From the IMG/VR virus record IMGVR_UViG_3300042317_001222, positions 1 through 34,583 of that record: a stretch of DNA of 34,583 bases; one strand, written 5' to 3'. The translations under genes were made by a program, and so were the position numbers. Positions 1,542 through 34,481 of the stretch are shown here, one piece after another; within the stretch, counting starts at the first letter, position 1, and each line of letters begins with the position of its first letter. The stretch is from a virus. The notes below the pieces were generated by a model. The model ran no database searches, was not told where the DNA came from, and saw nothing but the letters and a program-made list of their open reading frames with translations.

Positions 1542-2981
1542 ATGTTAATTTTAGGTATTAACGAAACATCACATGATGCATCAGTATCATTAATAGATAA
1601 GGATAAAATTTTATTTGCTGGGCATGCCGAAAGATATAGCAAAGTAAAAAATGATTGGTATATAAATAATAGTTTAATTAATGATGCTTTACAATATGGC
1701 ACACCTGATTACATTGCCTACTATGAAAAACCCTTTCTAAAAGCCTCTAGGCTGTTTTTAAAAGGTGGCCTAGGAGATTGGAAACCACGTTTTTATTTAG
1801 ACAACATCCCAAGAGTATCATTTAAACATCATTATTCTCATGCAGCAGCGGGGTACTATACAAGCAAATTTGATGATGCAGTAATTGTAGTATTAGATTC
1901 AATAGGAGAATACAATACATCTACCATTTGGGTTGGAGAAGGATCTTCTATTACTTTAAAAGAAAAAATTAATTATCCCTTTAGTTTTGGATTATTTTAT
2001 TCTGCATTTACAAAATTAGTTGGTTTAATGCCCAATCAAGAAGAATACATTATGATGGGTATGGCTGCATATGGCGACTGGCAAAAATATTATCAAAAAG
2101 TTTCATCTTATTTTCCTTCAATAGATTATCAAAAATATAACTTTCATAAAGGTATTATTGACTGGGAACAAGAAATAACAGAACAAGATAAATTTGATAT
2201 TGCAGCAGCAGTACAAAAAGTATATGAATTAAGACTATTTGATTTTATGACTCATGCTAAAAAAATTACAGGTAAACATGAATTAGTATTTATGGGTGGA
2301 TGTGCGTTAAATTGTTCTGCTAATACAATGTTGTGGGATATTTTTGATGATGTTTGGATTATGCCTAATCCAGGAGATGCTGGATCATCTCTTGGTGCTG
2401 CAGCAGCCCTTTATGGAAAACATTTAGATTGGCAAACTCCGTATCTTGGCTATGATTTAGGTGGAAAATACCCTGTAGAAGAAATTATAAAAGAATTACT
2501 AAACAATAAAATTGCAGCGGTAGCCGTAGGAAGAGCCGAATACGGTCCAAGAGCATTAGGAAATAGAAGTATTCTTGCAGATCCAAGAGATCCCAACATT
2601 AAAGATAAAGTTAATCAAATTAAAAAAAGAGAATTATTTAGGCCATTTGCTCCAGTAATTATGGAGGAGTGTGCAGATAAATGGTTTGATATGGACTTTG
2701 ATTCTCCGTATATGCAGTATGCAGTGAAGTGTTTAAGGCCAGACTTAGTTCCCGCCATTGTCCACAAAGATGGCACATCTAGAGTACAAACAGTAAATAA
2801 AGATCAACATATAGGTCTCTGGAGAGTTTTAAATAAATTTTATCAGGCGACAGGAGTCCCAATGCTACTAAATACAAGTTTAAACATAAAGGGACAGCCT
2901 TTATTAAATGATTCAAATGATATACTTTTATGGGAGCAAACTTATAATACAAAAATTATTAAAGGAAATAATAATGAATAA
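1542..2981 (+). CDS. Carbamoyltransferase, NodU/CmcH/TobZ family
   Basis: A 479-residue enzyme that would use carbamoyl phosphate and ATP to carbamoylate a hydroxyl, usually on a sugar. The Kae1-like N-terminal domain (about 1-310) begins with ILGINETSHDASVSLI and carries the histidine cluster KHHYSHAAAGYY (His96, His97, His100) and LDSIGEY. The YrdC-like C-terminal domain (about 320-479) has the signature EYGPRALGNRSILADPRDP followed by RPFAPVI. Length is slightly below bacterial NodU (about 550). The start is set by AGGAATA upstream of 1542. It leads an operon of overlapping genes to 7170 that includes a glycosyltransferase and two oxygenases, so a glycan or modified residue is the likely acceptor. 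Confidence 0.88.
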   Translation: MLILGINETSHDASVSLIDKDKILFAGHAERYSKVKNDWYINNSLINDALQYGTPDYIAYYEKPFLKASRLFLKGGLGDWKPRFYLDNIPRVSFKHHYSHAAAGYYTSKFDDAVIVVLDSIGEYNTSTIWVGEGSSITLKEKINYPFSFGLFYSAFTKLVGLMPNQEEYIMMGMAAYGDWQKYYQKVSSYFPSIDYQKYNFHKGIIDWEQEITEQDKFDIAAAVQKVYELRLFDFMTHAKKITGKHELVFMGGCALNCSANTMLWDIFDDVWIMPNPGDAGSSLGAAAALYGKHLDWQTPYLGYDLGGKYPVEEIIKELLNNKIAAVAVGRAEYGPRALGNRSILADPRDPNIKDKVNQIKKRELFRPFAPVIMEECADKWFDMDFDSPYMQYAVKCLRPDLVPAIVHKDGTSRVQTVNKDQHIGLWRVLNKFYQATGVPMLLNTSLNIKGQPLLNDSNDILLWEQTYNTKIIKGNNNE

Positions 2982-3624
2982 TATACCAGATAAAATATAT
3001 TTAAATAACATGCTTTCAATAGGTAAAGGTATTGAAAATATAAAAATTATTGAAAATATAATTACAGAGGAAGAGTCTGCATTGCTTTATCAAGAGTGTA
3101 AAAATGAATTATTTAGTTATAAGGATAAAAATACTGGAAAGCAGTGGAAAAATAAAATATCTTCTGAAGACATGATTAGTTATAAATCTAACTTGATATT
3201 ATTAAATACTTGCAATAAAATTTTGAAATTAGCAGAAAGTTTATACAATGTAAAACTTGAATTTTCATCTAGTTTACAATTGGTTAAATGGCAAGAAACA
3301 GATAATATGGAACAACACGTAGATGACTTTGCAGTTTTTCATAATAATATATCTTCTATATTATATATAAACGATGACTATTCTGGAGGAGAAATTGTTT
3401 TTAAACAATACAACTATTCTATAAAACCAAAAAGTGGAAGTTTAGTTTTATTTCCAGGAAATAAATATTATGCCCATAGCGTAAATAAAATAATTTCTGG
3501 AAATAGATATACTTCTCCGTTTTGGTTTAAATATACAGGATCTGATTTTCATGGAAGAGGTCGCCCATTAAATTTTAAATCAATTAATGATTGGATTGAA
3601 AAGGACTGGGAGCATGGAAATTGA
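2974..3624 (+). CDS. 2OG-Fe(II) oxygenase, prolyl-4-hydroxylase-like
   Basis: A 216-residue double-stranded beta-helix dioxygenase. Iron ligands are His115 and Asp117 (EQHVDD) and His168 (YYAHSVN), with Arg178 (GNRYT) for 2-oxoglutarate. YSGGEIVFK and the GSLVLFPGN turn are the usual P4H-type core. I chose the ATG at 2974 over the in-frame codon at 2908 because AAAGGA precedes it and it overlaps the carbamoyltransferase stop by 8 nt. The substrate is unknown; candidates are proline in a phage fibre or host protein, an amino-acid or sugar precursor, or a nucleobase. Confidence 0.85.
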   Translation: MNNIPDKIYLNNMLSIGKGIENIKIIENIITEEESALLYQECKNELFSYKDKNTGKQWKNKISSEDMISYKSNLILLNTCNKILKLAESLYNVKLEFSSSLQLVKWQETDNMEQHVDDFAVFHNNISSILYINDDYSGGEIVFKQYNYSIKPKSGSLVLFPGNKYYAHSVNKIISGNRYTSPFWFKYTGSDFHGRGRPLNFKSINDWIEKDWEHGN

Positions 3625-4255
3625 TTTTTATATATGGGAAAAAAGTTTAACTCAGTCATTTTTATATATTAATGAAAGATCTAATTTAAAAAGTGATTGG
3701 CTAGATTATAAAGAAATTTTAAAAACAGAATATAAAGATTCTGTAATAAAACCTATAAACAAATATTTTTATAAATTATCTACTCCTCCAAAATTAGTAT
3801 CAATTATAAATAATGAAATTACTTTATGTCAAGAAAATTTTGCAGAAATTTTTCTATTAAAAAAATATAATATTGAAAATTTAACTGCGATGGAAAAAAT
3901 TCATATGAGACAATTTTATTTGTCTAATCAAAAAACAGCAGATAATTCATTATGTTTTGATGAAAAATTTAGATGGGCAATGCAATGGTTTATAGATTAC
4001 CCAGGAATAAAAGTTAATATACTTCCTGTAGAAAATTCTCCTTTTTGTTTTGAGAAATATTCTTATTATTTTCAAGCAAAAACAATAGATAGAATTGATC
4101 CAGAAATGTTATTTTTTAAATTTAAAAATCAGGGCGAACATATGGTAGACAAAGAATATGGACGGATTAAACGAAATAATCCAGCATATTTGATTAATTT
4201 TACAGGAGATGATATACTAGTTAAAAAGATAAAGGAGTTTTATGGCCAACATTAG
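3614..4255 (+). CDS. Unknown protein in the modification operon
   Basis: 213 residues, rich in aromatic residues and Lys/Asn, with no motif I recognise. Notable stretches are FDEKFRWAMQWFIDYPGIKVNILP and the C-terminal FTGDDILVKKIKEFY. No membrane segment, Cys pairs or nucleotide-binding loop are seen. The start at ATG 3614 is chosen because it overlaps the preceding stop by 11 nt; it overlaps the next gene by 14 nt. The context (oxygenase upstream, DUF6065-like paralogues downstream) suggests the same pathway. Confidence 0.7.
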   Translation: MEIDFYIWEKSLTQSFLYINERSNLKSDWLDYKEILKTEYKDSVIKPINKYFYKLSTPPKLVSIINNEITLCQENFAEIFLLKKYNIENLTAMEKIHMRQFYLSNQKTADNSLCFDEKFRWAMQWFIDYPGIKVNILPVENSPFCFEKYSYYFQAKTIDRIDPEMLFFKFKNQGEHMVDKEYGRIKRNNPAYLINFTGDDILVKKIKEFYGQH

Positions 4256-4967
4256 ATTTTATCCATTTAGCGAAGAAACAGTAGATATAACAAAGCCACC
4301 CACTCCAGCCTACAAAGAAGTTCCAGATTGGTATAAAAAACAACCAGGATATGCAGGGGATCAAAATCAGTTTCTTGCAAGGGGGCACTCTTCTTCTACA
4401 ATTAAGAGATGTATGCCAATTTACGACGTTCTTTCTAGCGGATATTTTCTTTATTTCCCATGTGATATTTACATAGATGCAACCAATCCTGAAAAATTAT
4501 TTTGGAGTTTGCCAGAAACAATAAAAGGAATGAAAAGAGATATGATTGCTTCTCATACCGAACAGCAAGTGTCTCACTACCCAAGAGAAGATGGTTTATA
4601 TCATAAAGAAATTTTTAGAATTATGCCATTTTGGTCTGTGGGAACAGATAGTGGCTATAGTTGTTTATTTACCCAGCCATTTCATAGAGAACCAGCACCA
4701 TTTAAATTATTTTCTGCAATAGTAGATACAGATAATTACATTTCTGACGGATATTTATCAATGTACATTAAAAAAGATTTTAAAGGTGTAATTGAAAAAG
4801 AAACTCCTTTTGTACAAATTATTCCATTTAAAAGAGATTCTTATGAGATGTCTTTGGTAGATTTAAAAACTTCTCAAAATGCTTTAAAAAAACAAAGATT
4901 TTTAGTTAGAAGCAAGTTTAGTAATTTTTATAGAAATCATATGAGGCAGTCTAAAGAATATAGATGA
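4242..4967 (+). CDS. DUF6065-like protein, paralogue 1
   Basis: 241 residues. It shares a clear architecture with the genes at 4964-5692 and 24121-24894: PxxAYKEVPDWYKKQPG near the N-terminus, KRCMPIYDVLSSGYFLYFPCD (about 63-84), a middle PFWSVGTDSGYSCLFTQPFHR, IVDTDNY, and a terminal GVIEKETPFVQIIPFKRD. The pattern (conserved aromatic residues, GIV-D-T/S-D, P-F-K-R) resembles the DUF6065 family; that name is a recollection, not a search result. No catalytic residues can be named. Strong AAAGGAG site; overlaps its neighbours, including ATGA with paralogue 2. Confidence 0.7.
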   Translation: MANIRFYPFSEETVDITKPPTPAYKEVPDWYKKQPGYAGDQNQFLARGHSSSTIKRCMPIYDVLSSGYFLYFPCDIYIDATNPEKLFWSLPETIKGMKRDMIASHTEQQVSHYPREDGLYHKEIFRIMPFWSVGTDSGYSCLFTQPFHREPAPFKLFSAIVDTDNYISDGYLSMYIKKDFKGVIEKETPFVQIIPFKRDSYEMSLVDLKTSQNALKKQRFLVRSKFSNFYRNHMRQSKEYR

Positions 4968-5692
4968 ATAAAAAACAAAAAATAACTTTTATACCTTCTT
5001 TAGAAAATTTTAAAGATTCTTATGTTGCTCCAGTTCCTGCGATATCTTTGGTTCCAGAATGGTATAAAAGCCTATCTCTTTATGGCAAGAGTAATGATGA
5101 AAAAGAATTACATCCTGTAAATCACATAGGTACAGACGGCACCCTAGTTGCAACTAAAAAATGTATTCCATTTTTTGATGCATTGACTTCTGGCTATTAT
5201 TATTTGCTTGAAGATGATTTACATGTTAATTTGAATGAAAATGGATTTCCAACGTTGACTTGGAAAGGGAACATTATGTTATTGGATAAGAGGCCAACAC
5301 TAGAAGTGCCAATTCCAACTAATTGCCATCAACTACACTTTGGATTCAGGATGAATTGGTTTTACAGAACTCCACCAGGATACTCGGTTTTAGTCACACA
5401 TCCAATGAATAGATATGATCTACCATTTTTTACACTGTCTGGGATTGTAGATTCTGATATTTGGGGATTGCCAGTGTTTTTTTCATTTTTTTTACGTAGA
5501 GATTTTATAGGAATAATTCCTAAAGGAACGCCAATAATGCAATTTATTCCCTTTAAAAGAGATGACTGGGAGTTGGAAATTAATAAAAATAAAGAAATTA
5601 TTGAAGAGGAAGAATTTAAAGCAGAAAAAAGAAGAACAATGGTTACTGGCTACTATAAAAAAGATGTTTGGCAACAAAAGGAATTTAAATGA
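4964..5692 (+). CDS. DUF6065-like protein, paralogue 2
   Basis: 242 residues, tandem paralogue of the preceding gene. It has PAISLVPEWYKSL, KKCIPFFDALTSGYYYLLEDD, FYRTPPGYSVLVTHPMNRYDLPF, SGIVDSDIWGLP and IIPKGTPIMQFIPFKRDDW. The ATG overlaps the upstream stop (ATGA) and the stop is 1 nt from the next start. Keeping two diverged copies side by side suggests the products act together or on different substrates. It could be a cupin-like binding protein or an enzyme; the sequence does not decide. Confidence 0.7.
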   Translation: MNKKQKITFIPSLENFKDSYVAPVPAISLVPEWYKSLSLYGKSNDEKELHPVNHIGTDGTLVATKKCIPFFDALTSGYYYLLEDDLHVNLNENGFPTLTWKGNIMLLDKRPTLEVPIPTNCHQLHFGFRMNWFYRTPPGYSVLVTHPMNRYDLPFFTLSGIVDSDIWGLPVFFSFFLRRDFIGIIPKGTPIMQFIPFKRDDWELEINKNKEIIEEEEFKAEKRRTMVTGYYKKDVWQQKEFK

Positions 5693-5693
5693 A

Positions 5694-6620
5694 ATGACAG
5701 AGCAACAAAATAATTCAATAGACAGTATAAACGTTGTTATGTATTCTTATAAAAGCAAAGATGCAATTAAAACATTAGAAAATTTAATGAAAACTTGGTC
5801 TAAAAAAATATTTATTTTTATTCATTGGCATGATCAAAATGGAGTTGATCGGTCAAAATTATTAATTGACCTAATCAATAGTTATGATTTATGCAACGGG
5901 GCATATATTCCAGTGCATTGGGACGACATAGATGGAGCGGTTTTATATAAAGATTTAAGACTTAAGGCAACATTTGGTGGAAGATATCATATGACAATTA
6001 CACCAGGAGCAGTTCTAGAACAAGACTGGGATTTAAAATTAATTGACTTTGTTGTTGATAAAAATATAATTGTCTCTGGAAATAAAAAAACAGAGATATT
6101 TCATAAAAATTTATTTTTTATTGATAAAAAATATACAGAAATAGATAACTTTGCATTAACAAATTATATTGACAGAAATTTTATTTTTGGCAATGTTACG
6201 ATGATGAAAAATAATTTATTTGGTCAGTATAATTTTCCAGGATGGTTAAAATATTATGGGGAGGAGGAAGTTTTGTCTTTGCAATATTTTAAAGATAGCA
6301 TAAAGGTATATGCAGCCCCCGAAAATATAATAAAAATAAATAGATATTCTACCCTTGATGATTTTAATTATTATGTTCCATTTTCAAAATATCATAATTA
6401 CAATGAAGCAATTAGTTTATTTAAAAATAATGAAAACAGTATAATAGGTAAAATAGACCCAGAAATAGTAAATAATTTTAATAAATTTCATAATTTTTCA
6501 TTTAATGGATTGCATTATTTACCATTTTCTACTAATGATGTTTCTTATAGCATCACTGACTCTAGATATGATAAAATGGATGGCAGAAGATTTATTAAAC
6601 AAATACAAAAGGTGGATTAG
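5694..6620 (+). CDS. Glycosyltransferase, GT60-like (Skp1 GlcNAc-transferase type)
   Basis: 308 residues starting at the ATG 1 nt after the preceding stop; an in-frame extension from 5562 would lie wholly inside the upstream gene and lacks family character. The N-terminus INVVMYSYKSKDAIKTLENL is a GT-A-like strand/helix. YKDLRLKATFGGRYHM and VLEQDWDLKLIDF (85-119) correspond to the donor and metal region, and FPGWLKYYGEEEVLSLQYFK (181-200) followed by VYAAPENIIKI matches the conserved GEE-plus-aromatic block of GT60 enzymes. The founding GT60 member adds GlcNAc to hydroxyproline of Skp1. The adjacent downstream gene is a prolyl-hydroxylase-like enzyme. GT-A fold likely; the GT60 assignment is moderate because the canonical DXD is replaced. 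Confidence 0.6.
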   Translation: MTEQQNNSIDSINVVMYSYKSKDAIKTLENLMKTWSKKIFIFIHWHDQNGVDRSKLLIDLINSYDLCNGAYIPVHWDDIDGAVLYKDLRLKATFGGRYHMTITPGAVLEQDWDLKLIDFVVDKNIIVSGNKKTEIFHKNLFFIDKKYTEIDNFALTNYIDRNFIFGNVTMMKNNLFGQYNFPGWLKYYGEEEVLSLQYFKDSIKVYAAPENIIKINRYSTLDDFNYYVPFSKYHNYNEAISLFKNNENSIIGKIDPEIVNNFNKFHNFSFNGLHYLPFSTNDVSYSITDSRYDKMDGRRFIKQIQKVD

Positions 6621-6621
6621 T

Positions 6622-7170
6622 ATGCACAGAATAACAGTAGTAGATAATTTTATTGAAGAAAAGGATGCATTAATTTTAATTAATGAAATTAATAGTCCTT
6701 CTGAAATTAATCCGTATCCTAATTATTATAGCCAAAGATACGGGGGAACGGCATTTCCATACAATCAAAATGTAATAAAAACTTTAGTTAAGTACGGTCA
6801 TAAATCAAACAACATGCACAGGGCATTAAGTGGATTTTTAAACAACATATACGTATTCAAGGCATTTGGATCACATTGGACATCTGGCACAAAAGGTGAT
6901 TTACATATAGATGCACAAGGTCCTGAGCCATTTATTGAATGGAGTACTATTATGTATTTAAATGATCCTTCGGAATATGAAGGAGGAGAAATTTATTTTC
7001 CAAATCAGGGCTTTACGTACAAGCCAAAAAAATATTCAGCAGTATTTTTCCCTAGTGCAGGAACAGAATATATTCATGGTATAACAGAAATTACAGAGGG
7101 CCATAGATATACTGCATTGTATATGCATACATCTTTATCGCAGCACCAAGATCCAGATTTTAAATTATAA
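6622..7170 (+). CDS. 2OG-Fe(II) oxygenase, prolyl-hydroxylase-like
   Basis: A 182-residue compact dioxygenase. His95 and Asp97 (DLHIDAQG), His152 (EYIHGITE) and Arg162 (GHRYTALY) give the complete facial triad plus 2-oxoglutarate ligand; YEGGEIYFP and AVFFPSAG are core strands. ATG 6622 is 1 nt after the glycosyltransferase stop and is preceded by AAAGGTGG; the in-frame start at 6505 is rejected because it lies inside that gene. Last gene of the 1542-7170 operon and best candidate partner of the GT60-like enzyme. Confidence 0.85.
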   Translation: MHRITVVDNFIEEKDALILINEINSPSEINPYPNYYSQRYGGTAFPYNQNVIKTLVKYGHKSNNMHRALSGFLNNIYVFKAFGSHWTSGTKGDLHIDAQGPEPFIEWSTIMYLNDPSEYEGGEIYFPNQGFTYKPKKYSAVFFPSAGTEYIHGITEITEGHRYTALYMHTSLSQHQDPDFKL

Positions 7171-7176
7171 GCACAT

Positions 7177-7252
7177 TGGCTCATAACTCAGTTGGTAGAG
7201 TGCCGAACTGTTAATTCGGATGTCCCAGGATCGAAACCTGGTGAGCCAGCCA
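7177..7252 (+). tRNA. tRNA-Asn (GTT)
   Basis: Cloverleaf: acceptor TGGCTCA/TGAGCCA, D-arm ACTC/GAGT, anticodon stem CCGAA/TTCGG with loop CTGTTAA (anticodon GTT), T-arm CCAGG/CCTGG with loop ATCGAAA, discriminator G and encoded CCA. It lies 6 nt after the oxygenase stop, so it may be processed from that operon mRNA. Confidence 0.95.
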
Positions 7253-7254
7253 AA

Positions 7255-7881
7255 TCAATAATAATATTTTTCTTGAATAAACATTCTTTGTTTTTCTATT
7301 TGCTCAATTAAGTCTGATGAAATTAAACTTTTATTATTTTTTTCAAAAAAACGAAAAATTAAAACATCATAAAATTCTTTATCTTTAAATATTTTAGAAG
7401 GTCTCCAATGAATATTATTGGTTACATTAAAAAATAAACATTCGTTATTTTTAAGATCATAATGTTTATTATTTACAAATATACTCCAATTATTTTTATT
7501 GTTAATTGGGACGGTAAAACATAGCCAGTATCCATTATCTATATGATCTGAATGCGGACGAACATTTGGATTTAAAACTCCAGTCTCTGCTGTATATCTT
7601 TGCCAAACTAAATTTGAGCCAAAATCAATATCAATTTTTAATATTTTTTTTATTTTTGCAGATATAGAATCAAATAGTTCTGGATATTCATTATTTTTTA
7701 TCCAATAATTAAAACAACCAAGCCAATCATTTTTTTCAAATCCATAATATTTTTCTTTATTATTAATAAGATTTTTGTTTATTTTATTTTTTATTATTAA
7801 TGAAATTTTTTTAATTTCTTCGTCAGTAAAAAAATCATTGACTATTTCTGGTTTAAATGATACAATATTAAAATTAGACAT
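7255..7881 (-). CDS. 2OG-Fe(II) oxygenase-like protein, HxD...HWRP subgroup
   Basis: 208 residues. The N-terminal VNDFFTDEEIKKISLII is the usual oxygenase lead-in. His110 and Asp112 (RPHSDH) and His158 (NIHWRP) are candidate iron ligands, with Arg160 or Arg177 (LIFRF) for the co-substrate. It resembles the products at 11135-11812 and 30196-30687 more than the GGE/FPGN oxygenases, so this is a distinct subgroup (HxD...H[WF]R). Leaderless: TGATATAAT ends 6 nt before the ATG. Convergent with tRNA-Asn and divergent from tRNA-Glu. Confidence 0.65.
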   Translation of the reverse strand: MSNFNIVSFKPEIVNDFFTDEEIKKISLIIKNKINKNLINNKEKYYGFEKNDWLGCFNYWIKNNEYPELFDSISAKIKKILKIDIDFGSNLVWQRYTAETGVLNPNVRPHSDHIDNGYWLCFTVPINNKNNWSIFVNNKHYDLKNNECLFFNVTNNIHWRPSKIFKDKEFYDVLIFRFFEKNNKSLISSDLIEQIEKQRMFIQEKYYY

Positions 7882-7902: not shown

Positions 7903-7975
7903 GTCCCCATCGTCTAGTGGCCTAGGACATCGCCCTTTCACGGCGGTAACACGGGTTCAAATCCCGTTGGGGACG
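7903..7975 (+). tRNA. tRNA-Glu (TTC)
   Basis: Acceptor GTCCCCA/TGGGGAC, anticodon stem TCGCC/GGCGG with loop CTTTCAC (anticodon TTC), T-arm ACGGG/CCCGT with loop TTCAAAT, discriminator G. CCA is not encoded, unlike tRNA-Asn. It ends 3 nt from the stop of the leftward gene at 7978. Confidence 0.95.
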
Positions 7976-7977
7976 CT

Positions 7978-8658
7978 TCAATAGTTTGGATTTTCTAATT
8001 TACTGGGATTTGAAAATAAGTTTTTTAATATGTTATTTTTTAATGATATAAAAGACTTATCTTCAGTAGATATAAAGTCTATATTTTGATTATTTAAAAT
8101 ATTTTTTTCTGTACCATAAATTTTAACATCTAATATTTGTTTTCCACCTACTTTAGCAAAATTACCATAAGCGGATCTTGGAAAATATGCTAGTTCCATT
8201 GAATCTTTTAATTGTTTTTTATTCATTGTCATAGGAACGTGTATATCATAGTCTATTGGATTATATATATTGTTTTTTATTAATTGCTGATATGTTAATT
8301 CTAACAACTTAATATATTTTGATGGCATTCTTAGTTCTTTGTATCTTGTAATTTTTTCTTTAAGCGATCCCCCGTGTAATATAGGAACAGTGTCTATTTT
8401 TTTTAAAGCAAAAAAATCATCATTCATTAAGATAAAATTATCAGATATCTCTAAATTATTTGCAACAGTCTTAATACAATTCCTTATATTATCAAATTTT
8501 CCGCCAATATCTTTAACACGTATTAAATTTCCTATATACCAAATAGGCCTACTTCCTATTAACCAAACTTTTCCTTCTGGCATATTTTTTTCTATTGATC
8601 TTAGAGAATATCTTAATTCTTCGTTATCGCCACTGCGACAAATGTATACATAGTCCAT
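7978..8658 (-). CDS. Stealth-like sugar-phosphate transferase / glycosyltransferase
   Basis: 226 residues. The N-terminal VYICRSGDNEELRYSLRSI is a GT-A-like first strand, followed by VWLIGSRPIWYIGNLIRVKD and the diagnostic SDNFILMNDDFFALK (about 90-105), which matches the conserved block of Stealth capsular-polysaccharide phosphotransferases (F-x-Y/M-x-N-D-D-x-F). The C-terminal Stealth regions are poorly conserved or absent and the protein is short for the family. Likely role: hexose-phosphate or sugar transfer in surface-glycan modification. Leaderless, divergent from the two-domain glycosyltransferase at 8692. Confidence 0.6.
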   Translation of the reverse strand: MDYVYICRSGDNEELRYSLRSIEKNMPEGKVWLIGSRPIWYIGNLIRVKDIGGKFDNIRNCIKTVANNLEISDNFILMNDDFFALKKIDTVPILHGGSLKEKITRYKELRMPSKYIKLLELTYQQLIKNNIYNPIDYDIHVPMTMNKKQLKDSMELAYFPRSAYGNFAKVGGKQILDVKIYGTEKNILNNQNIDFISTEDKSFISLKNNILKNLFSNPSKLENPNY

Positions 8659-8664
8659 ATAAAA

Positions 8665-8684
8665 ATTATAGCATGCGGTATAAT
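8665..8684. promoter_or_regulatory. Back-to-back leaderless promoters
   Basis: In the 33 bp between the divergent ATGs lie a minus-strand TGCTATAAT (-10 at 8665-8670, 6 nt to ATG 8658) and a plus-strand TATAAT (8679-8684, 7 nt to ATG 8692). The two -10 boxes are 8 bp apart, so polymerase binding on one side should exclude the other. This would couple expression of the two glycosyltransferases. Confidence 0.65.
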
Positions 8685-8691
8685 AAAGAAT

Positions 8692-10602
8692 ATGGCTAAA
8701 ATATTAATTGTAAGTGCTAACCTACCAGAATGGTCAAAAAATAGTGGCGGAAAAGAAAGAACGCTGACATTAGTTGAAGCATTAGATAAACATGAGGTAA
8801 CATTTTTATCTTTTAACTGGAACAATGAATTTATAGATAATAAAATAGACAACAACTTAAGACATTTACAACCACGTATTGGAAACAGTATGTATAAAAG
8901 AAGAAAAAATCTAATCAATAATTTTGTGTCACAAAATCATGATGCTGTATTTGAAATACTAAAAGATGAATTAAATCATTTTACATTAACGGTTAAAGAT
9001 TTAGCCAAAGATTCTGATTTATTAATAGTGGACCACTATTCTGTTTCTCCTTTGATTGAAGGAATAAAAGGTATTCCAATCATATATAATTCACATAATG
9101 CAGAAATAGAATTAGGAAAACAGGTTCATCCAGATAATAAAGATTTATTAAAAATAGTTGACACAATGGAAAGAAGAATTTTAAATCAAGCCAAAGAAAT
9201 AACATATTGTTCGGAATTAGATTTTATAAAATTACAAAAATATTATGAAAAAAATATTCTTGGAACCTATATCCCTAATGGAACAGAAATACAAAATAAA
9301 ATAAATTATAAAGATAGGCTAAGATCAAGAGATATTATTTTTGTTGGGACAGGGCATCCACCAAATAAAATTGCAGCAAAATTTTTACTTAATTTGGCAA
9401 AAGATTTACCTGAATTTAATTTTATAATTATTGGTGGTTGCGGTAACTCACTTACAAAAAATTCTATACCAGATAATGTTCAGGTTGTTGGGCATGTGGA
9501 TGATAAAACATTAGACAAGTATTTTAAAACATCTTTTGCTTTTATTAACCCAATGAGTCAGGGATCTGGAACTCATTTGAAAATGATGAAAGCGCTAGGT
9601 TATGGCATTCCAATTATAAGTTCAGATGTTGGTGCAAGGGGTTTTGAAGACAAAGAAAAAGAGAATGCAATGCTAATTGCAAATACACAGGACACAATTA
9701 TAAATGCACTAAAGGTTTTAAAAAATGAATTAATATATAAAGAAAAATGTGAACAAGCATATGAGTATTCAAAAAAATATGATTGGGAAAAAATAAAACA
9801 ACAATATTCTTCTTTTATAGATGAATGTTTAAATAAATATGCCAAGCCTAAAGAAAAAACAAAAAACATTAAAAAAGAAAAAATATTAATATCTTCTATT
9901 GTACGAAATGATGAGAATTTTTATATTAATTATTATAATAGGCTAAAGTCTATAGTGGATTCTTTTCCAGAATATGAATTTTATTTATCAATTTACGAAA
10001 ATGACTCTACCGATAGCACAAAAAATTTAATATTAAAACAAGATTACTCTATGTTTAGCGGAGTCTCTATAGTATCTGAGACCTTAAATACAAAATTTTA
10101 CGGATCCAGCAAAGATGAGGATCGAGTAAAAAATCTTTCAATTGCAAGAAATAAGGCCCTTGTTGGTGGAAATTTTTTAGACCTTGTTGACTATATTCTT
10201 GTAATAGATATAGATGTTGAATTTAAAATGCCTGCTGTTGAAAAGATATTAAACTTTAAATTTATAAAGCCTGAATTTGATGTAGTTGCTGCTGCAACTT
10301 TACGCAAGAACGTTTTATACGATCAGTGGGCAACAAGAGAAGGTGCAGAGTATGACCCAAAAATTCAAGAAAGGTTTAACGAATACAGAAAATCTACTTA
10401 TAAAAAATATTACTCAGTTTCTAGTGGATTTTGTTTTTATAATGCCAAGCCATTTAAGCAGGGTATTCGATGGGATTACATTAACCAAGTAACAAATAAA
10501 CCAGACTGCGAAATGGTAGTGGTATGTCAACAACTCAGTAAAATAGGCTATAATAATATATATATGATGCACGAAGCAGAAATGTATCATAATCACAAGT
10601 AA
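8692..10602 (+). CDS. Two-domain glycosyltransferase (GT4-like plus GT69-like)
   Basis: 636 residues. Residues 1-385 form a GT-B enzyme of GT4 type: ILIVSANLPEWSKNSGG start, YNSHNAEIELG near 145, FVGTGHPPNK near 220, and GSGTHLKMMKALGYGIPII near 290-310 for nucleotide-sugar binding. Residues 400-636 are a second, GT-A-like domain: YLSIYENDSTDSTKNLI (about 430), RNKALVGG, YILVIDIDVEFKMP (about 500) and a final MHEAEMYHNHK, like the CAP59/GT69 mannosyltransferase family. A lysine-rich linker (385-400) joins them. Such fusions make two successive linkages on one glycan. Leaderless promoter; a strong AAGGAG follows for the next small gene. Confidence 0.8.
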   Translation: MAKILIVSANLPEWSKNSGGKERTLTLVEALDKHEVTFLSFNWNNEFIDNKIDNNLRHLQPRIGNSMYKRRKNLINNFVSQNHDAVFEILKDELNHFTLTVKDLAKDSDLLIVDHYSVSPLIEGIKGIPIIYNSHNAEIELGKQVHPDNKDLLKIVDTMERRILNQAKEITYCSELDFIKLQKYYEKNILGTYIPNGTEIQNKINYKDRLRSRDIIFVGTGHPPNKIAAKFLLNLAKDLPEFNFIIIGGCGNSLTKNSIPDNVQVVGHVDDKTLDKYFKTSFAFINPMSQGSGTHLKMMKALGYGIPIISSDVGARGFEDKEKENAMLIANTQDTIINALKVLKNELIYKEKCEQAYEYSKKYDWEKIKQQYSSFIDECLNKYAKPKEKTKNIKKEKILISSIVRNDENFYINYYNRLKSIVDSFPEYEFYLSIYENDSTDSTKNLILKQDYSMFSGVSIVSETLNTKFYGSSKDEDRVKNLSIARNKALVGGNFLDLVDYILVIDIDVEFKMPAVEKILNFKFIKPEFDVVAAATLRKNVLYDQWATREGAEYDPKIQERFNEYRKSTYKKYYSVSSGFCFYNAKPFKQGIRWDYINQVTNKPDCEMVVVCQQLSKIGYNNIYMMHEAEMYHNHK

Positions 10603-11134: not shown

Positions 11135-11812
11135 TTAATAAAATAAATCTTTATCGTAAATCATTTCATAAAACTCTGAAAAAAATTTACATCTTGAAAG
11201 AACTATATCTGACTGATCTTTGCTTAATGGCATGTCGTTAATATATTCTAAGTGACAAAAAATCATATCTTGCCGATTTCCATTTTTTAATTGTTTTTTT
11301 CTTCTCCAATGTGGCTGTTGTGTTCCACAAAAAACTAAGGCCTGATTGTTTTGTAAAAAATATTCTACATCTTCAACTACAACCCCCCACTCTTCATCTG
11401 CATAAAGTTGAATATCAAATGTAATTCTTTGCTTGTCTTGGTTATCTTTAAAAAAAGTATCTACGTGTGGATATAAATTTGTAGCGTAGCCATACTCTGA
11501 ACTATACCTGGCAAAATTTTGATCTTTGGACAATACAACATAATCCCCAATTTTTTCTTTAATTATGTCGCTTAATCTTTCTTTAATCTTAGGTCCAAAG
11601 TCTACGTGCCAAGCCTTCATTCCAGCCCATTTTTGTAAAGAGGTTTTATCTTCGTTTGTTGTGCTTATAATATTATATATATTTTTTATATCTTCTTCAG
11701 AAAAAATATTGTCAACAATAAATGGCTGAAAGTCTTGATTGGACACAAGTGGTTGTGATCTTTTAAACTCCATGTATTTTTCATATGCAGGCCCTTTTTG
11801 TGGAGATCTCAT
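11135..11812 (-). CDS. 2OG-Fe(II) oxygenase-like protein, HxD...HWRR subgroup
   Basis: 225 residues. FIVDNIFSEEDIKNIYNII (31-49) is the typical oxygenase N-terminal element. His116 and Asp118 (LYPHVDTFF) and His168 (QQPHWRRK) are likely metal ligands, between which lie strands DIQLYADEEWGVVVE and NNQALVFCG. Same subgroup as 7255-7881 and 30196-30687. Leaderless: minus TGATATAAT is 7 nt before ATG 11812. Could instead be a non-catalytic cupin; full metal ligands favour an enzyme. Confidence 0.6.
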   Translation of the reverse strand: MRSPQKGPAYEKYMEFKRSQPLVSNQDFQPFIVDNIFSEEDIKNIYNIISTTNEDKTSLQKWAGMKAWHVDFGPKIKERLSDIIKEKIGDYVVLSKDQNFARYSSEYGYATNLYPHVDTFFKDNQDKQRITFDIQLYADEEWGVVVEDVEYFLQNNQALVFCGTQQPHWRRKKQLKNGNRQDMIFCHLEYINDMPLSKDQSDIVLSRCKFFSEFYEMIYDKDLFY

Positions 11813-13094: not shown

Positions 13095-13236
13095 TATAAT
13101 ATATATCTGCATCTCGTCACTGGGAAGTCGCAGATAAGTCGGGGGAGACAGCGACTATTAAATAACTGGCGTACACCTGAGCATGTGGATAAAAGGCTCT
13201 TTTCCTGATATAATAAGTTTAGAATGGAGAACAAAA
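13095..13236 (+). promoter_or_regulatory. Structured non-coding leader with two -10 boxes
   Basis: A 142-bp gap without a gene, visibly richer in G+C than its flanks. TATAAT (13095-13100) and TGATATAAT (13206-13214) are candidate promoters. Between them TCTGC (13106-13110) can pair with GCAGA (13130-13134), or AGTCGC (13126-13131) with GCGACT (13151-13156). The two helices share bases and exclude each other. This could be a small RNA, a riboswitch-like leader of the oxygenase at 13237, or a terminator/antiterminator. No known riboswitch is recognised. Confidence 0.4.
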
Positions 13237-13878
13237 ATGAAATATGAAATTATGGCTCCTGGTATGGTTTATTATCGAAATGCAATTATAGATCCAGAAA
13301 AAACTATTTCAACTATTGAATATATTCAAGACAAACTTATGTCTGGAATAAATTCTGTTGCTGATAAATGGCAAGAATGGAATGGTGCAAATCCAAATAC
13401 AGAAAAATTTTGTTTAAAACATTGGATTACTGACCCAGATAAGGTTTCATCAGATGATCCTCTTTACTCAGAAATATTTTTGATTTATAATAATATTTTT
13501 AATGGAATTAATAATGCCTTTAAACATTACTCTAATGAAATATATCCAGCAGCATCAAAAAACATAAAATCAACAGAGGGCATGTTAAGTATTTTAAAAT
13601 ATTCTAAAACTGGTTATTTGCCACCGCATCAAGATCAAGGGGTAAGTAGTAGAGTTTTATCAACTGTAGGATATTTAAATGATAATTATGATGGTGGAGA
13701 AATTAATTTTCCTTATGTTGGAGTTACAATTAAGCCAGAGGCGGGTAGTGTAATATTTTTTCCTTCTAATTTTATTTATGTTCATGAGGTAAGACCAATG
13801 ATTTCTGGCATAAGATACGCAGTTCCTCAATGGTATCACAGTCTATTGGAACCAAGAAGTTCAACTGGAGAAGAATAG
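13237..13878 (+). CDS. 2OG-Fe(II) oxygenase, prolyl-hydroxylase-like
   Basis: 213 residues with a full active site: His131 and Asp133 (PPHQDQG), His183 (YVHEVRP), Arg193 (GIRYA). YDGGEINFP and GSVIFFPSN are core strands. An extended -10 (13206-13214) gives a leader with GGAGA 7 nt before ATG 13237; the upstream in-frame codon at 13183 precedes this promoter and is rejected. Followed by a zinc-ribbon gene with overlapping stop/start (TAGTG). Confidence 0.85.
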   Translation: MKYEIMAPGMVYYRNAIIDPEKTISTIEYIQDKLMSGINSVADKWQEWNGANPNTEKFCLKHWITDPDKVSSDDPLYSEIFLIYNNIFNGINNAFKHYSNEIYPAASKNIKSTEGMLSILKYSKTGYLPPHQDQGVSSRVLSTVGYLNDNYDGGEINFPYVGVTIKPEAGSVIFFPSNFIYVHEVRPMISGIRYAVPQWYHSLLEPRSSTGEE

Positions 13879-17266: not shown

Positions 17267-17482
17267 ATGTTAATAACTAAAATAGAACAAGCAGAAAAAA
17301 TTGTTAAATCTTTTAAAGATCTTAGATGGGATGGATGGAATATAGTCTCTAGACATGAAACTCCAAACGGATTTAATAGTAAGTATGGATCTTTTATTAA
17401 TAATAAATGGGGTATCGATAAACTATATCCGTTAACAGAAAAGGGTTGGTATCTTCCAAATAATTACGGAGAAAAAAAATGA
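17267..17482 (+). CDS. Unknown 71-residue protein
   Basis: Helix (KIEQAEKIVKSFKDL) then an aromatic, polar tail (RWDGWNIVSRHETPNG, KGWYLPNNYG). AAGGAG lies 5 nt before the ATG; the stop overlaps the next gene (ATGA). No family recognised. The W-D-G-W-N/D motif recurs in small phage proteins of unknown role. Confidence 0.7.
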   Translation: MLITKIEQAEKIVKSFKDLRWDGWNIVSRHETPNGFNSKYGSFINNKWGIDKLYPLTEKGWYLPNNYGEKK

Positions 17483-18222
17483 TAAATTATGAGCCATACA
17501 AAAATTATTTTAATAAACTTGGCAAAGATAAAAGCAATATTCATTATATAGAAAATTTTATTGATAATCAAGATGTTATAACTATCGTTGACTATTTAGA
17601 TACTTACAGAGATAATGATGAGTTTATGGGGGGAAAAGATTTAAGGGAAGATACTGTTAGGGCAGAAAATTCACAAGTAGGACTATTGCTCGATAAATAC
17701 GAAAATAAAATTTATAACGAAGCCTATAAACTTTTTACTGAAAAATATAAAATTCCTATTATTCGTAAGGCCGTAAATTCTACTCATTTTGTTAAATGGA
17801 TTACTGGAATGAATTCCAAACTGCATTGTGATTGTGAAAAGCCAGATGGAAGTCCAGCAATTGCTGCAGATTTTTATAAGTATAATGTTTCTGTTTTGAT
17901 GTATCCAAATGATAATTATATCGGGGGAGAAATTACTTTCCCTGACTATGGTTTAGTAATTAAGCCAAAGGCTGGTAGCATGATTATGTTCCCTGGCAAT
18001 GGAGCATATAAACATACCGTAGAAAGAGTTAAAGATGGAACTAGGTACACAATGCCATCTTGGTATACGTTTAATGTTGAAGATAACTATACAAATAAAG
18101 AGCAAAAATCTTGGACATATATGGATTCTACACAACTTTGGGAAGGTTTACCAGATTACGAAAAAATTGATCCAGTTGGAATTGATGTGAAAGGCAAGGT
18201 TTTTGATGACAAAAAACCATAA
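17479..18222 (+). CDS. 2OG-Fe(II) oxygenase, prolyl-hydroxylase-like
   Basis: 247 residues: His116 and Asp118 (LHCDCEKPDG), His179 (YKHTVERV) and Arg189 (GTRYT) complete the site. YIGGEITFP and GSMIMFPGN are core strands. About 45 residues follow the core, longer than in its paralogues, and may cover the active site. The ATG overlaps the preceding stop; the WhiB gene starts inside its 3-prime end. Confidence 0.85.
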   Translation: MINYEPYKNYFNKLGKDKSNIHYIENFIDNQDVITIVDYLDTYRDNDEFMGGKDLREDTVRAENSQVGLLLDKYENKIYNEAYKLFTEKYKIPIIRKAVNSTHFVKWITGMNSKLHCDCEKPDGSPAIAADFYKYNVSVLMYPNDNYIGGEITFPDYGLVIKPKAGSMIMFPGNGAYKHTVERVKDGTRYTMPSWYTFNVEDNYTNKEQKSWTYMDSTQLWEGLPDYEKIDPVGIDVKGKVFDDKKP

Positions 18223-18499
18223 ATGGAAAGATAGTGGTCTTTGTGTAAATTATGACACTTCTTTCTTTTTTGAAAAGTACGAAGAAGGCAGCGTAGAATT
18301 TAAAAACAACATGGATCAATTTTGTTTAAATTGTCCAGTATTAAAAACATGCTTTGCAGTTGGGGTTTCTGGCAAAGAGTATGGACTTTGGGGCGGAATA
18401 TACCTAGAAGAAGGAGAACCTTCTAGAGAATTTAACAGTCATAAAACTAAAGAATCTTGGTCTGCCCATTGGCAAGCACTAACATTAGAAAGTAAATAA
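18206..18499 (+). CDS. WhiB-type Fe-S transcription factor
   Basis: 97 residues with the WhiB cluster ligands: Cys in SGLCVNYD, then C-L-N-C-P-V-L-K-T-C (C-x2-C-x5-C), followed by EYGLWGGIYLEEGEP, the G-[VIL]-W-G-G turn that contacts the sigma factor. WhiB proteins occur essentially only in Actinobacteria and their phages; they bind a [4Fe-4S] cluster and region 4 of the primary sigma factor. This is the best host indicator in the window. Start at ATG 18206, with AAGG upstream, rather than the TTG at 18203. Overlaps the oxygenase by 17 nt. Confidence 0.92.
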   Translation: MTKNHKWKDSGLCVNYDTSFFFEKYEEGSVEFKNNMDQFCLNCPVLKTCFAVGVSGKEYGLWGGIYLEEGEPSREFNSHKTKESWSAHWQALTLESK

Positions 18500-19214: not shown

Positions 19215-19380
19215 TTTAAGAGGTACGCCAACACATGTCTGTATTTGTGGATCAAAGGTTTGGAATATAAAAGCAATGTTTGAAAATGGTGCAATTGCTT
19301 TGTATTTTTTAGATATGAAATGTGCAGAATGTGGGGCACTCGCAACCGCTCCAACACAGGTGGATGGCGGAGAGGTCTAA
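19207..19380 (+). CDS. Small zinc-ribbon protein
   Basis: 57 residues with VCICGSKVW and MKCAECGALA, a C-x-C...C-x2-C zinc ribbon around FENGAIALYFLD. AAGGAT lies before ATG 19207; it overlaps the upstream gene by 8 nt and the next start by one base (TAATG). Probably a nucleic-acid- or protein-binding accessory factor. Confidence 0.75.
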   Translation: MVDLRGTPTHVCICGSKVWNIKAMFENGAIALYFLDMKCAECGALATAPTQVDGGEV

Positions 19381-20231
19381 TGACAAAAAATGAAGATTTT
19401 TTTAAAAAAGTAAACAATAGTGCACAAAAAACTAATGTTAATAAAAAAACAATTATAGAGTATAGATTTAATAAATATGATTATGCCCTAGATGTTTTTG
19501 ATAAAAATATTTTTAAACCCGAAGATTTTAAATATTTGCCAGAAGAATATAAAAAAGAATTTAATAATTATGGATATAGAAGCGATAACTTTTTAAAAGA
19601 ACATAAAGGAACCCATGTTTTATTTGCTGGATGCTCGCAAACATTTGGATTTGGATTAGATCAAGAAGAAATGTGGTCTAAAATATTATATAATAAAATT
19701 AATAAAAATAAAGAATGTAGTGGATATTTTAATTTATCTGCCTCTGGGTCTGGAATACAATTTATAATTTCAAATATTTTTAAATATTTTAAAAATTTTG
19801 GAAATCCAGATTATATATTTTTAAATTTGCCAGATGGTTTTAGATTTATTGCACATTTACCAGAAACAAATAACTATAGTAAAATAACTTTTAAAACAAA
19901 AAATTCTGAAATACAAAAGTTTCTATCTTTGATAAATTACCACTATTATTTAATGCTGGAAGAATATTGTAAATCAAATAGCATAAAATTATATGCAGTA
20001 AGTTGGGATACAAAAGATCCAAAACACTATAATACTAATGATTTTTTTTCTATATTTGAAACCTTTATTTCAATCAACTATAAAAAAATGCATGAAGACA
20101 TTATTAATGACGAAAATAAATATAAATCAAAATATTATTATTATGCTAGAGATGGTGTGCATGATGGGGCTGGCTATAATATTTGGCTAGCAAATTTTTT
20201 GTATGATAAATATTTAAAAAATAATGCTTAA
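19380..20231 (+). CDS. SGNH/GDSL-like hydrolase or acyltransferase, copy 1
   Basis: 283 residues. Nucleophile candidate Ser86 sits in VLFAGCSQTFGFG (block I, G-x-S-x-T/S), preceded by YGYRSDNF, which in bacterial SGNH proteins leads into block I. NLSASGSGIQ carries the block II Gly; PDYIFLNLPDG resembles block III; RDGVHDGAGYNIWLANFL near 262 supplies the D-x-x-H pair. Members deacylate or acetylate sugars and cell-wall polymers. There is no signal peptide. Start at ATG 19380, overlapping the zinc-ribbon stop; the longer in-frame start at 19320 lies inside that gene. Paralogue at 20967. Confidence 0.65.
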   Translation: MTKNEDFFKKVNNSAQKTNVNKKTIIEYRFNKYDYALDVFDKNIFKPEDFKYLPEEYKKEFNNYGYRSDNFLKEHKGTHVLFAGCSQTFGFGLDQEEMWSKILYNKINKNKECSGYFNLSASGSGIQFIISNIFKYFKNFGNPDYIFLNLPDGFRFIAHLPETNNYSKITFKTKNSEIQKFLSLINYHYYLMLEEYCKSNSIKLYAVSWDTKDPKHYNTNDFFSIFETFISINYKKMHEDIINDENKYKSKYYYYARDGVHDGAGYNIWLANFLYDKYLKNNA

Positions 20232-24093: not shown

Positions 24094-24123
24094 GGGCCAT
24101 GCAGAAATGTGTGGCCTTTTTTA
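24094..24123. terminator. Rho-independent terminator, possibly bidirectional
   Basis: GGCCATGC (24095-24102) pairs with GTGTGGCC (24109-24116), with two G-T pairs, followed by TTTTTT. It separates the convergent genes ending at 24079 and 24121; A-rich sequence on the other side would supply some U residues for the minus transcript. Confidence 0.8.
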
Positions 24124-24894
24124 TTTAAAGTTTTTAGAGTTCCAAACAAATTTTTTATAATAATCATACAAAAATGAATCACGTTTAGAAATTTGCTTGT
24201 TGTATTCTTTAATCATTGCTTTATCTACTTTATTTTGCCAATTATCTCTTTTAAACGGTATAACTTGAAAGATAGGGGTACCTTTTTTAATTATGCCCTC
24301 CCAATCCTTTTTTAATAAAAATGGGTGACTGCCAGCATCGCCCCAGCCATCAGTATCTATTATGCCACCCAAAGTATAAAATGGTAAATCAATACGATTA
24401 ATTGGATGACAAAATATAGCGCTATACCCCTTTGGAGTTCTTACGTTCCAGGATGGAAACCAGTTAAATTCAAGTGGATCATAACCTTCTAAATCATTCC
24501 AAGCACAAGATTCGTCTACCTGTTGTTCTGAATTTTGTTTTCTTGATAAAACTGCAGCGGGAACTCCAAATTTAGTTCTATCGGAAGATATATTTCTATC
24601 TCCAAAGGCAGAGTTAATTTGAACAGAGCCATCACTATTTCTATTAACCTGAATGTCACAATTTAACACAAACATATATCCTGCAGTAAATGCATCTAAT
24701 ACTGGCAAACAAGACTTAACTGTTTGATTCCTTATATTATTTTTTAAACTAAATTTTTTATCTTTATTGACATATTTTGGAATATTTTTATACCAATCTG
24801 GAATATATTTAGAGGCTGGAATGGGAGGATCCGTTAAGTCTGCACAATCTTCATTTACAGGATAAAATAAAATATCTTTATATTTTTTAATCAT
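24121..24894 (-). CDS. DUF6065-like protein, paralogue 3
   Basis: 257 residues. Shares with 4242-5692: PPIPASKYIPDWYKNIPK, VKSCLPVLDAFTAGYMFVLN, FPSWNVRTPKGYSAIFCHP, NRIDLPFYTLGGIIDTDGW and IIKKGTPIFQVIPFKRDNW. I start at ATG 24894, whose N-terminus lines up with the paralogues; the in-frame TTG at 24924 adds 10 residues. It follows the oxygenase stop by 10 nt without a clear ribosome site, so translation probably continues from upstream. The pairing of this family with a 2OG oxygenase occurs at both loci, here and at 2974-7170. Confidence 0.7.
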   Translation of the reverse strand: MIKKYKDILFYPVNEDCADLTDPPIPASKYIPDWYKNIPKYVNKDKKFSLKNNIRNQTVKSCLPVLDAFTAGYMFVLNCDIQVNRNSDGSVQINSAFGDRNISSDRTKFGVPAAVLSRKQNSEQQVDESCAWNDLEGYDPLEFNWFPSWNVRTPKGYSAIFCHPINRIDLPFYTLGGIIDTDGWGDAGSHPFLLKKDWEGIIKKGTPIFQVIPFKRDNWQNKVDKAMIKEYNKQISKRDSFLYDYYKKFVWNSKNFK

Positions 24895-24904
24895 ATAATT
24901 AAAA

Positions 24905-25564
24905 TTATTCTTTATAGTTTTCAATTTTTAAAAAAATTGACATGGCATATCTACCATCTCCAATTGCTGGAAAGATTCCGTGTCTATTAAAAAAATTTCC
25001 AGGAAAAGACACAAACATTCCTTTTTCTGGCTTAATCATTAGATCATGTTCTGGAAAATATAACTCTCCTCCAGAATAATTATCATTTAAATAAATAAGG
25101 TTAGACAGCGTACCAGACCACATATACATTACATTTTGATAATCGCCAAAATTATCACAATGAATATCAGTAACAAAATTTTCATGTCTTTTTAAAATAT
25201 AAAATCTTTCATTGTGTGGTATATTCATAGAAACATCTTCTATTAATTTAAATCCAAATAAATCTTGTGCTTTATTTTTCATTTTTTCTAGAGTCTTATT
25301 TGCTAAATAATTTGCTTTTTTTAATTCTTCATCTGATAAAAATTCTTTTTTCTCAAAAATAAATTTTAAAAAATCCACATCTTCATTTGATATAAAATTT
25401 TTTATTATTTTTATAGTGTCCTTGCTATTGCCAATTTGTTCAGTAATTGGATCAATTTTAACATTCATATCTTTTTTTATATTTTCATACATTGAAAAAC
25501 TTGGAAAAAGTTTTGCTGGATCTCTTTCTTTTTTGTCTAAAATTTCAAAATAATGATTATTCAT
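24905..25564 (-). CDS. 2OG-Fe(II) oxygenase, prolyl-hydroxylase-like
   Basis: 219 residues. His135 and Asp137 (TDIHCDNFG), His195 (NRHGIFP), Arg205 (DGRYAMS); YSGGELYFPEHD and GMFVSFPGN are core strands. It has a longer N-terminal arm than most paralogues. The KDTIKIIKNFISNED segment is nearly shared with 26077-26739, so these two are close relatives. The ATG overlaps the thioredoxin stop (ATGA). Confidence 0.85.
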   Translation of the reverse strand: MNNHYFEILDKKERDPAKLFPSFSMYENIKKDMNVKIDPITEQIGNSKDTIKIIKNFISNEDVDFLKFIFEKKEFLSDEELKKANYLANKTLEKMKNKAQDLFGFKLIEDVSMNIPHNERFYILKRHENFVTDIHCDNFGDYQNVMYMWSGTLSNLIYLNDNYSGGELYFPEHDLMIKPEKGMFVSFPGNFFNRHGIFPAIGDGRYAMSIFLKIENYKE

Positions 25565-26076: not shown

Positions 26077-26739
26077 CTATATTAGTTCGTTTTTAAAATC
26101 AGCAAATCTTGTCCACAAAGAAATGGTAAATCTAGTAGCGTTCGTAGTCTCCGTTACCCCATGCAAAAAATGAAGGTTGCCAGGAAAGCATACAAATAGG
26201 CCAGGCTCTGGAACTATTTCAATTTTATGCTCTGGAAAATACAAAACTCCGCCCTCATAATCTTTATTTAAATAACAAATTATCGATAAGTGACCACTCC
26301 ATAAAAATGGCCAATCTTTTTGTTGTTGCTCAAACAGGTTATCTTGATCATAAACTTCTTCTTGATAATAATCAATAATGTCTGTATGTGGATCTAAATG
26401 AGATCCCTCTGGATGAATAAATAAATCTAAGGGCCTATTTTTTTCTAATTTTAATCCATACAACTCTTCAGCCTTACTTCTTAGTTTTATTTCATATCCA
26501 GCAAATATTTTTTTAGTTTCTTCATCATGAACATCATCAACTGTAGCAGTAAAATGATGAGTTCTATTTTTTTCTATTCCAGAAATTAATTTGCCAAATT
26601 TTAAAAATTTATCAATGTCTTCTTGTGGTACAAAATTTTTAATAATTTTTATAGTATCCTTGTTAGTTCCTATAATTTTACTAATATTGTCCATTTGTTT
26701 TGGTGGAAGATTTATATTTATATAGTCTGATGTGTTCAT
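26077..26739 (-). CDS. 2OG-Fe(II) oxygenase, prolyl-hydroxylase-like
   Basis: 220 residues: His118 and Asp120 (DPHTDIID), His193 (FLHGVTE), Arg203 (ATRFTIS). YEGGVLYFPEH and GLFVCFPGN are core strands. I start at ATG 26739; the in-frame ATG at 26757 would translate the -10 TATAAT as Y-N. Leaderless and divergent from the methyltransferase at 26779. Confidence 0.85.
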   Translation of the reverse strand: MNTSDYININLPPKQMDNISKIIGTNKDTIKIIKNFVPQEDIDKFLKFGKLISGIEKNRTHHFTATVDDVHDEETKKIFAGYEIKLRSKAEELYGLKLEKNRPLDLFIHPEGSHLDPHTDIIDYYQEEVYDQDNLFEQQQKDWPFLWSGHLSIICYLNKDYEGGVLYFPEHKIEIVPEPGLFVCFPGNLHFLHGVTETTNATRFTISLWTRFADFKNELI

Positions 26740-26745
26740 AAAACC

Positions 26746-26772
26746 ATTATACAGCATTAGCCGTGATATAAT
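26746..26772. promoter_or_regulatory. Divergent leaderless promoters
   Basis: Minus TATAAT (26746-26751) is 6 nt before ATG 26739. Plus TGATATAAT (26764-26772) is 6 nt before ATG 26779. Together they control an oxygenase/methyltransferase pair from a 39-bp gap. Confidence 0.7.
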
Positions 26773-34354: not shown

Positions 34355-34407
34355 GTGCTACGTAATAGAAAAATAAATAACATTTTTGTTGTACTCGGCC
34401 CCCCCTG

Positions 34408-34481
34408 CGATCCCAACGGGACTTGAACCCGTAGCCTTTACCGTGACAGGGTAACGATCTAACCAATTGATCTATGGGACC
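34408..34481 (-). tRNA. tRNA-Asp (GTC)
   Basis: Acceptor GGTCCCA/TGGGATC, D-arm GATC/GATC, anticodon stem TTACC/GGTAA with loop CTGTCAC (anticodon GTC), T-arm ACGGG/CCCGT with loop TTCAAGT, discriminator G. CCA not encoded. One G-T pair in the acceptor. Confidence 0.92.

Follow-up and report, generated by a model that had tools for sequence, protein, structure and literature searches.

The window, by which we mean the whole 34,583-base stretch of DNA analyzed here (virus record IMGVR_UViG_3300042317_001222, probably a fragment), carries the following features.

1542-2981, plus strand: CBT, an O-carbamoyltransferase of the NodU/TobZ/GdmN type (PF02543, 4e-36; PF16861, 8e-52).
2977-3624, plus strand: OXa, a 2OG-Fe(II) oxygenase (PF13640, 1e-10).
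3614-4255, plus strand: HYP1, a conserved cassette protein (29-sequence alignment).
4242-4967, plus strand: DUF6065-type protein a (DUF6065a; phrog_7084, 8e-45).
4964-5692, plus strand: DUF6065 protein b (DUF6065b; PF19541, 2.6e-6; dUTPase-like predicted fold).
5694-6620, plus strand: GT, a GT-A glycosyltransferase-like protein and distant GT60 relative (by fold and family profile).
6622-7170, plus strand: OXb, a 2OG-Fe(II) oxygenase, prolyl-hydroxylase-like (PF13640, E 1.8e-8).
13183-13878, plus strand: OXc, a 2OG-Fe(II) oxygenase (PF13640, 5.8e-14).
19320-20231, plus strand: an SGNH-hydrolase-like protein, so named by eye (phmmer relatives lie between OXc and CBT).
28319-29125, minus strand: a collagen-like fiber with two short Gly-X-Y runs (PF01391, 2e-6).

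The genes from CBT through OXa, HYP1 and DUF6065a to DUF6065b lie on one strand, most with overlaps of a few bases. GT begins with an ATG at 5694 and ends at 6620, and OXb runs from an ATG at 6622 to 7170, leaving one base between the two, with AGGTGG just upstream. An earlier note on this DNA had described a glycosyltransferase followed 1 nt later by an oxygenase with a complete site, in an operon with another such oxygenase and a carbamoyltransferase; its coordinates are right, the additional enzymes are there (OXa by PF13640, CBT by PF02543 and PF16861), and the iron- and 2OG-binding site of OXb is complete, with H95, D97, H152 and R162 invariant in 35 aligned relatives. The host of the virus is probably a member of the Actinobacteria, as suggested by a WhiB-family gene in the window (18203-18499, PF02467), and the low-GC freshwater Actinobacteria, whose phages are treated in PMC10202952, are a plausible host group.

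Scans of IMG/VR yielded 71 loci that encode relatives of GT, at 28-72% identity; these relatives form 22 clusters at 70% identity and eight at 40%. OXb directly follows GT in 61 of the 70 loci that have a next gene and is one gene further along in 7 of the 70; among the GT loci it is missing only from L064/L071, and the two genes lie within two genes of each other in all but one of the 22 clusters. An independent sample of 39 contigs, chosen solely for encoding PFGFTPFGF, includes 18 with a strong GT match; 17 have a strong OXb match, every one of them among these 18. GT and OXb are a real, long-conserved pair and not a chance juxtaposition. The surrounding gene order likewise recurs in numerous uncultured phages, running HYP1-DUF6065a-DUF6065b-GT-OXb and continuing in most lineages with OXc, SGNH-like genes and CBT; DUF6065a is kept in the cassettes of relatives, and HYP1, which matches nothing in Pfam, has invariant residues in its alignment. 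Comparison of the window GT with that of locus L002 gives a dN of 0.18, a dS of 1.18 and a dN/dS of about 0.15, and values between other relatives range from 0.06 to 0.18; GT is under strong purifying selection. All contig counts are limited by the fragmentary nature of the records, none of which is reported to be at least 90% complete. A search of isolated phages gave no match to GT, and a conserved-motif scan found none in the bacterial and archaeal genome collection. To our knowledge, and within the literature searched, the cassette is undescribed.

The earlier note called the glycosyltransferase GT60-like, GT60 being the family of the enzyme Gnt1, and this description holds for the family but less well for the window protein. 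PF11397, the GT60 domain, is matched by 27 of 49 GT relatives (best 2.1e-6), and hhalign links the profile of the GT family to true phage proteins of PF11397 (97.3%, E 1.6e-11, 189 columns). The window GT itself has no match in Pfam (PF11397 included), PHROGs or NCBIfam, and a profile search of PDB sequences found none. In the alignment its acidic metal motif is replaced by TPG (residues 103-105), which occurs throughout the window clade except for NPG in L019 and which aligns to the IDAH of phage PF11397 proteins, so that neither DxH nor DxD is present there; elsewhere the motif is SD[N/D/E] or GDG in the wider GT family and DxH in the true PF11397 proteins. The window GT is a distant relative of GT60, and we do not file it as a member.

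The AlphaFold model of the window GT (pLDDT 87) has a GT-A fold like that of GalNAc-T2 (GT27). The closest PDB fold is that of ppGalNAc-T2 (Z 20.0, rmsd 3.3, 246 residues), a likeness in fold only, at 11% identity; chondroitin polymerase (Z 16.2) and the lysyl hydroxylase LH3 (Z 15.5 over LH3 residues 293-520) rank lower, and TarP, a teichoic-acid GT, is also among the matches. The nearest named viral models (BFVD, ranks 2-4) are called "Glycosyltransferase, GlcNAc". The C-terminal ricin-type lectin domain of GT27 was not found in the window GT, a protein of 308 residues whose alignment stops near residue 272 and which has no Pfam domain. From these models it is plausible that the GT family works like a protein O-glycosyltransferase. 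With the metal-binding Asp motif gone from the window clade, the window GT is a putative enzyme that may be inactive or metal-independent.

The solved relatives ranked highest by the OXb profile are prolyl 3-hydroxylase 1 (6e-7) and bacterial P4H, and PKHD enzymes are also near. OXb is prolyl-hydroxylase-like and may have a peptidyl-proline substrate. It is one of six PF13640 oxygenases in 34.6 kb (2977-3624, 6622-7170, 13183-13878, 17479-18222, 24905-25564 and 26077-26757). OXa is peculiar to the window, as HYP1 directly follows CBT in the window-clade relatives, and in most other lineages the gene that immediately follows OXb is a relative of OXc. By eye, two more ORFs of the window (7255-7881 and 11135-11812) are oxygenase-like, as are proteins of about 216-235 residues with an HDH motif in another locus (L065:5285-5992 and 6822-7472). 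These HDH-motif proteins belong to no convincing Pfam family, and a search for the type among isolated phages found none.

CBT carries both domains of the TobZ/NodU type of O-carbamoyltransferase, and its best solved relatives are decarbamoylnovobiocin carbamoyltransferase, GdmN and TobZ. Enzymes of this type act on sugars and hydroxyls. The loci contain 47 CBT relatives. A further relative, in cyanophage S-CAM1, is encoded between tail-fiber genes and together with sugar-nucleotide genes, a context that fits glycan decoration. Relatives of the SGNH-like protein, which has no Pfam match, are found beside CBT in other cassettes. True PF11397 proteins with IDAH or IDSH are also encoded (L042:11130-12122, L045:9619-10608 and L060:8102-9055); a true GT60 with an intact IDAH follows CBT in several cassettes, and in many, such as those of L042 and L045, it overlaps the end of CBT. 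Phages with this overlapping gene therefore have two GT60-related enzymes each.

In the L065, L069, L049 and L064 lineages, the cassette starts just after the gene for an FN3-(TPFGF)n protein and ends near LamG/portal genes. The repeat has the consensus [T/S/A]-P-F-[G/S/A]-F, with T preceding P in 75%. The repeat protein is found on 8 of the 10 cassette contigs of at least 60 kb, a lineage-level count in which some contigs are close relatives; G001, the contig closest to the window, is one of the eight, two contigs lack the protein, and the gene is not present on the 34.6 kb window record. Three HDH-type oxygenase-like genes adjoin the repeat protein in G001. Elsewhere, as many as three HDH-motif proteins come after the PFGF protein, and some contigs have DUF6065 or HDH-type genes behind the repeat gene but no GT. 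We consider this ([T/S]PFGF)n protein of the virion region a better candidate acceptor than the Gly-X-Y fiber. Its association with the cassette is what a target and its modifying enzymes would show, but an insertion hotspot or shared descent would explain it just as well. FN3 or PASTA proteins with ([T/S]PFGF)n and a Hint-like C-terminus are encoded at L065:607-1986, L069:2-1495, L216:16220-17452 and L217:6885-8412; the Hint likeness was seen by eye, and this end has no match in Pfam or NCBIfam. In the second repeat copy of G001, the Hint-like part is a separate ORF. The repeat protein was not found among isolated phages.

The explanation that we favor, tentatively and with real doubt, is that the cassette post-translationally decorates a phage virion protein by hydroxylation combined with glycosylation/carbamoylation. 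The prolyl-hydroxylase-like oxygenases would hydroxylate residues in a repetitive protein, one or more GT-A enzymes of the GT60/GT27 neighborhood would attach a sugar, either at the newly made hydroxyl or at a Ser/Thr beside Pro, and CBT and the SGNH-like enzymes would cap that sugar; in related phages, the acceptor would be the protein with ([T/S]PFGF)n repeats encoded among the structural genes. What the computations show is a conserved cassette, the families and folds of its enzymes, purifying selection and its co-occurrence with the repeat protein. We infer the sequence of reactions, which sugar is used, the identity of the acceptor and that the window GT itself is active. A more specific version, to which we give a small chance, is a mucin-like or RiPP-like maturation in actinobacterial phages, in which several 2OG oxygenases would hydroxylate a virion protein at its ([T/S]PFGF)n repeats, a GT60/GT27-type enzyme would O-glycosylate them, and carbamoylation would take place as well. 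If decoration of the virion is correct, phages whose hosts are probably Actinobacteria would be applying eukaryote-like hydroxylate-then-glycosylate chemistry, together with carbamoylation, to their own particles. The cassette would also give a role to the surplus 2OG oxygenases of aquatic phages, the substrates of which are mostly unknown, and the TPFGF repeats offer a concrete candidate acceptor for testing.

We know of no hydroxylase/carbamoyltransferase cassette of such composition in mycobacteriophages. Capsid glycosylation has been put forward for these phages (PMC11256854), which resemble the window virus in encoding GTs thought to decorate capsid or tail proteins and probably in host phylum (Actinobacteria). 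In Dictyostelium, Skp1 is hydroxylated by the P4H PhyA and then glycosylated by Gnt1 (PMC3515798). The likeness lies in the combination of a PHD-like prolyl hydroxylase and a GT60-type transferase, which there act in order; that pathway, however, is eukaryotic, modifies one Pro and serves oxygen sensing, whereas the phage GT lacks DxH and is encoded beside DUF6065 and carbamoyltransferase genes. The earlier note knew of no described phage system of this kind, a statement that needs qualifying for viruses: mimivirus encodes the collagen lysyl hydroxylase L230 and a collagen glucosyltransferase (PMC5802723, PMC9546862). Here, too, the enzymes that hydroxylate and glycosylate a structural protein are encoded by the virus, but the mimivirus enzymes act on collagen Lys, and Gly-X-Y sequences do not track the phage cassette. 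A search of the literature for phage prolyl hydroxylases with collagen-like proteins found no paper that appeared to describe a phage system.

That the pair hydroxylates and then glycosylates was itself proposed in the earlier note; as protein modification this is plausible, given the conserved pair, the fold and OXb, but the collagen-like fiber as the target is not supported. In that scheme, OXb would hydroxylate Pro at Y in the Gly-X-Y fiber and GT would glycosylate it, on the model of collagen or Skp1; we now regard this as very improbable. The fiber is as it had been described, with two runs (8 and 10 triplets by regular expression) that include GLP, GDP and GEP, and with Pro at Y in three triplets and at X in three; it is on the same contig as GT and the prolyl-hydroxylase-like OXb, and in lineages L065 and L069 a collagen-like S74 fiber with Gly-X-Y is encoded downstream of OXc, at a distance of one or two genes. 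Yet a survey for co-occurrence of GT, oxygenase and Gly-X-Y fiber, which the earlier note had suggested, went against it. A run of seven Gly triplets is absent from 11 long contigs with GT and oxygenase (G016, G023, G033, G040, G050, G051, G054, G055, G075, G076 and G083; 54-125 kb, and fragments, so the absence is not absolute), and contigs without the cassette have such runs just as often, among them several that lack GT (G057, G062, G065, G069 and G078). PF01391 is carried by one of the 19 PFGF contigs that have a GT match and by 10 of the 20 that have none. G001, the nearest long relative, has no match to the window fiber gene in the parts read, and its sole collagen run has Y-position Pro in 0 of 12 triplets. 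DNA or nucleotide hypermodification, in which DUF6065, the oxygenases, GT and CBT would together produce a modified base in the manner of the 5-carbamoyloxymethylcytosine system, seems to us quite unlikely, though less so. The top PDB matches of the DUF6065b model (pLDDT 83) are all dUTPase/dCTP deaminase, but the scores are modest (Z 7.6-9.0; Foldseek E values exceeding 1e-3); a DUF6065 gene lies between class II RNR and tail-fiber/adhesin genes in haloviruses, and related contigs have an RNR gene in the vicinity of DUF6065 or HDH-type genes. The predicted fold and the halovirus RNR neighbor point to nucleotides rather than protein, and DUF6065 could also bind a nucleotide-sugar or be structural; our literature search on DUF6065 found none. 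Against this, the window oxygenases match PF13640 and nothing of TET/JBP above the cutoff, and T4-type DNA GTs have another fold, GT-B. A phage-type PF02543/PF16861 carbamoyltransferase does act on 5hmC, but that enzyme goes with a thymidylate synthase/dCMP hydroxymethylase homolog, and the carbamoyltransferases of unmodified contigs adjoin glycosyltransferases (PMC8670742). No such homolog was found here: PF00303 is absent from 36 of 36 records (fragments, with a working positive control), and because of this absence we judge DNA modification less likely.

Modification of a host surface glycan, a teichoic acid-like polymer or a small molecule, for superinfection exclusion or receptor masking, is also on the unlikely side. 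It would accommodate the Stealth-like protein, the GT4/CAP59-like fusion and the Methyltransf_24 enzyme of the window, as well as TarP among the fold matches of GT; on the other hand, no lipid-carrier enzyme was recognized in the cassette, the best fold matches of GT are peptide-acceptor enzymes, and several lineages have the cassette among structural genes. A different doubt concerns the window-clade GT, which with a similarly low probability is a noncatalytic paralog, a scaffold or acceptor binder, with a second GT doing the chemistry. The change of the acidic motif to TPG or NPG would agree with this, as would the true GT60 proteins with IDAH in cassettes of other lineages and the other GTs of the window at 7978-10602. 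Weighing against it, WD, GEEE and other family residues are still invariant across the GT alignment, purifying selection on GT is strong, and GT-A enzymes without DxD exist, such as GT14.

Some further features of the window deserve mention. The Stealth-like protein and GT4/CAP59-like fusion (7978-10602) adjoin the cassette and are kept in the window clade, and the Methyltransf_24 enzyme is encoded in the window as well. DUF6065 proteins are also encoded at 24121-24924 in the window and at L073:8914-9750. There are three tRNA genes, for tRNA-Asn (7177-7252), tRNA-Glu (7903-7976) and tRNA-Asp (34407-34481), the first two of which flank the ORF at 7255-7881.
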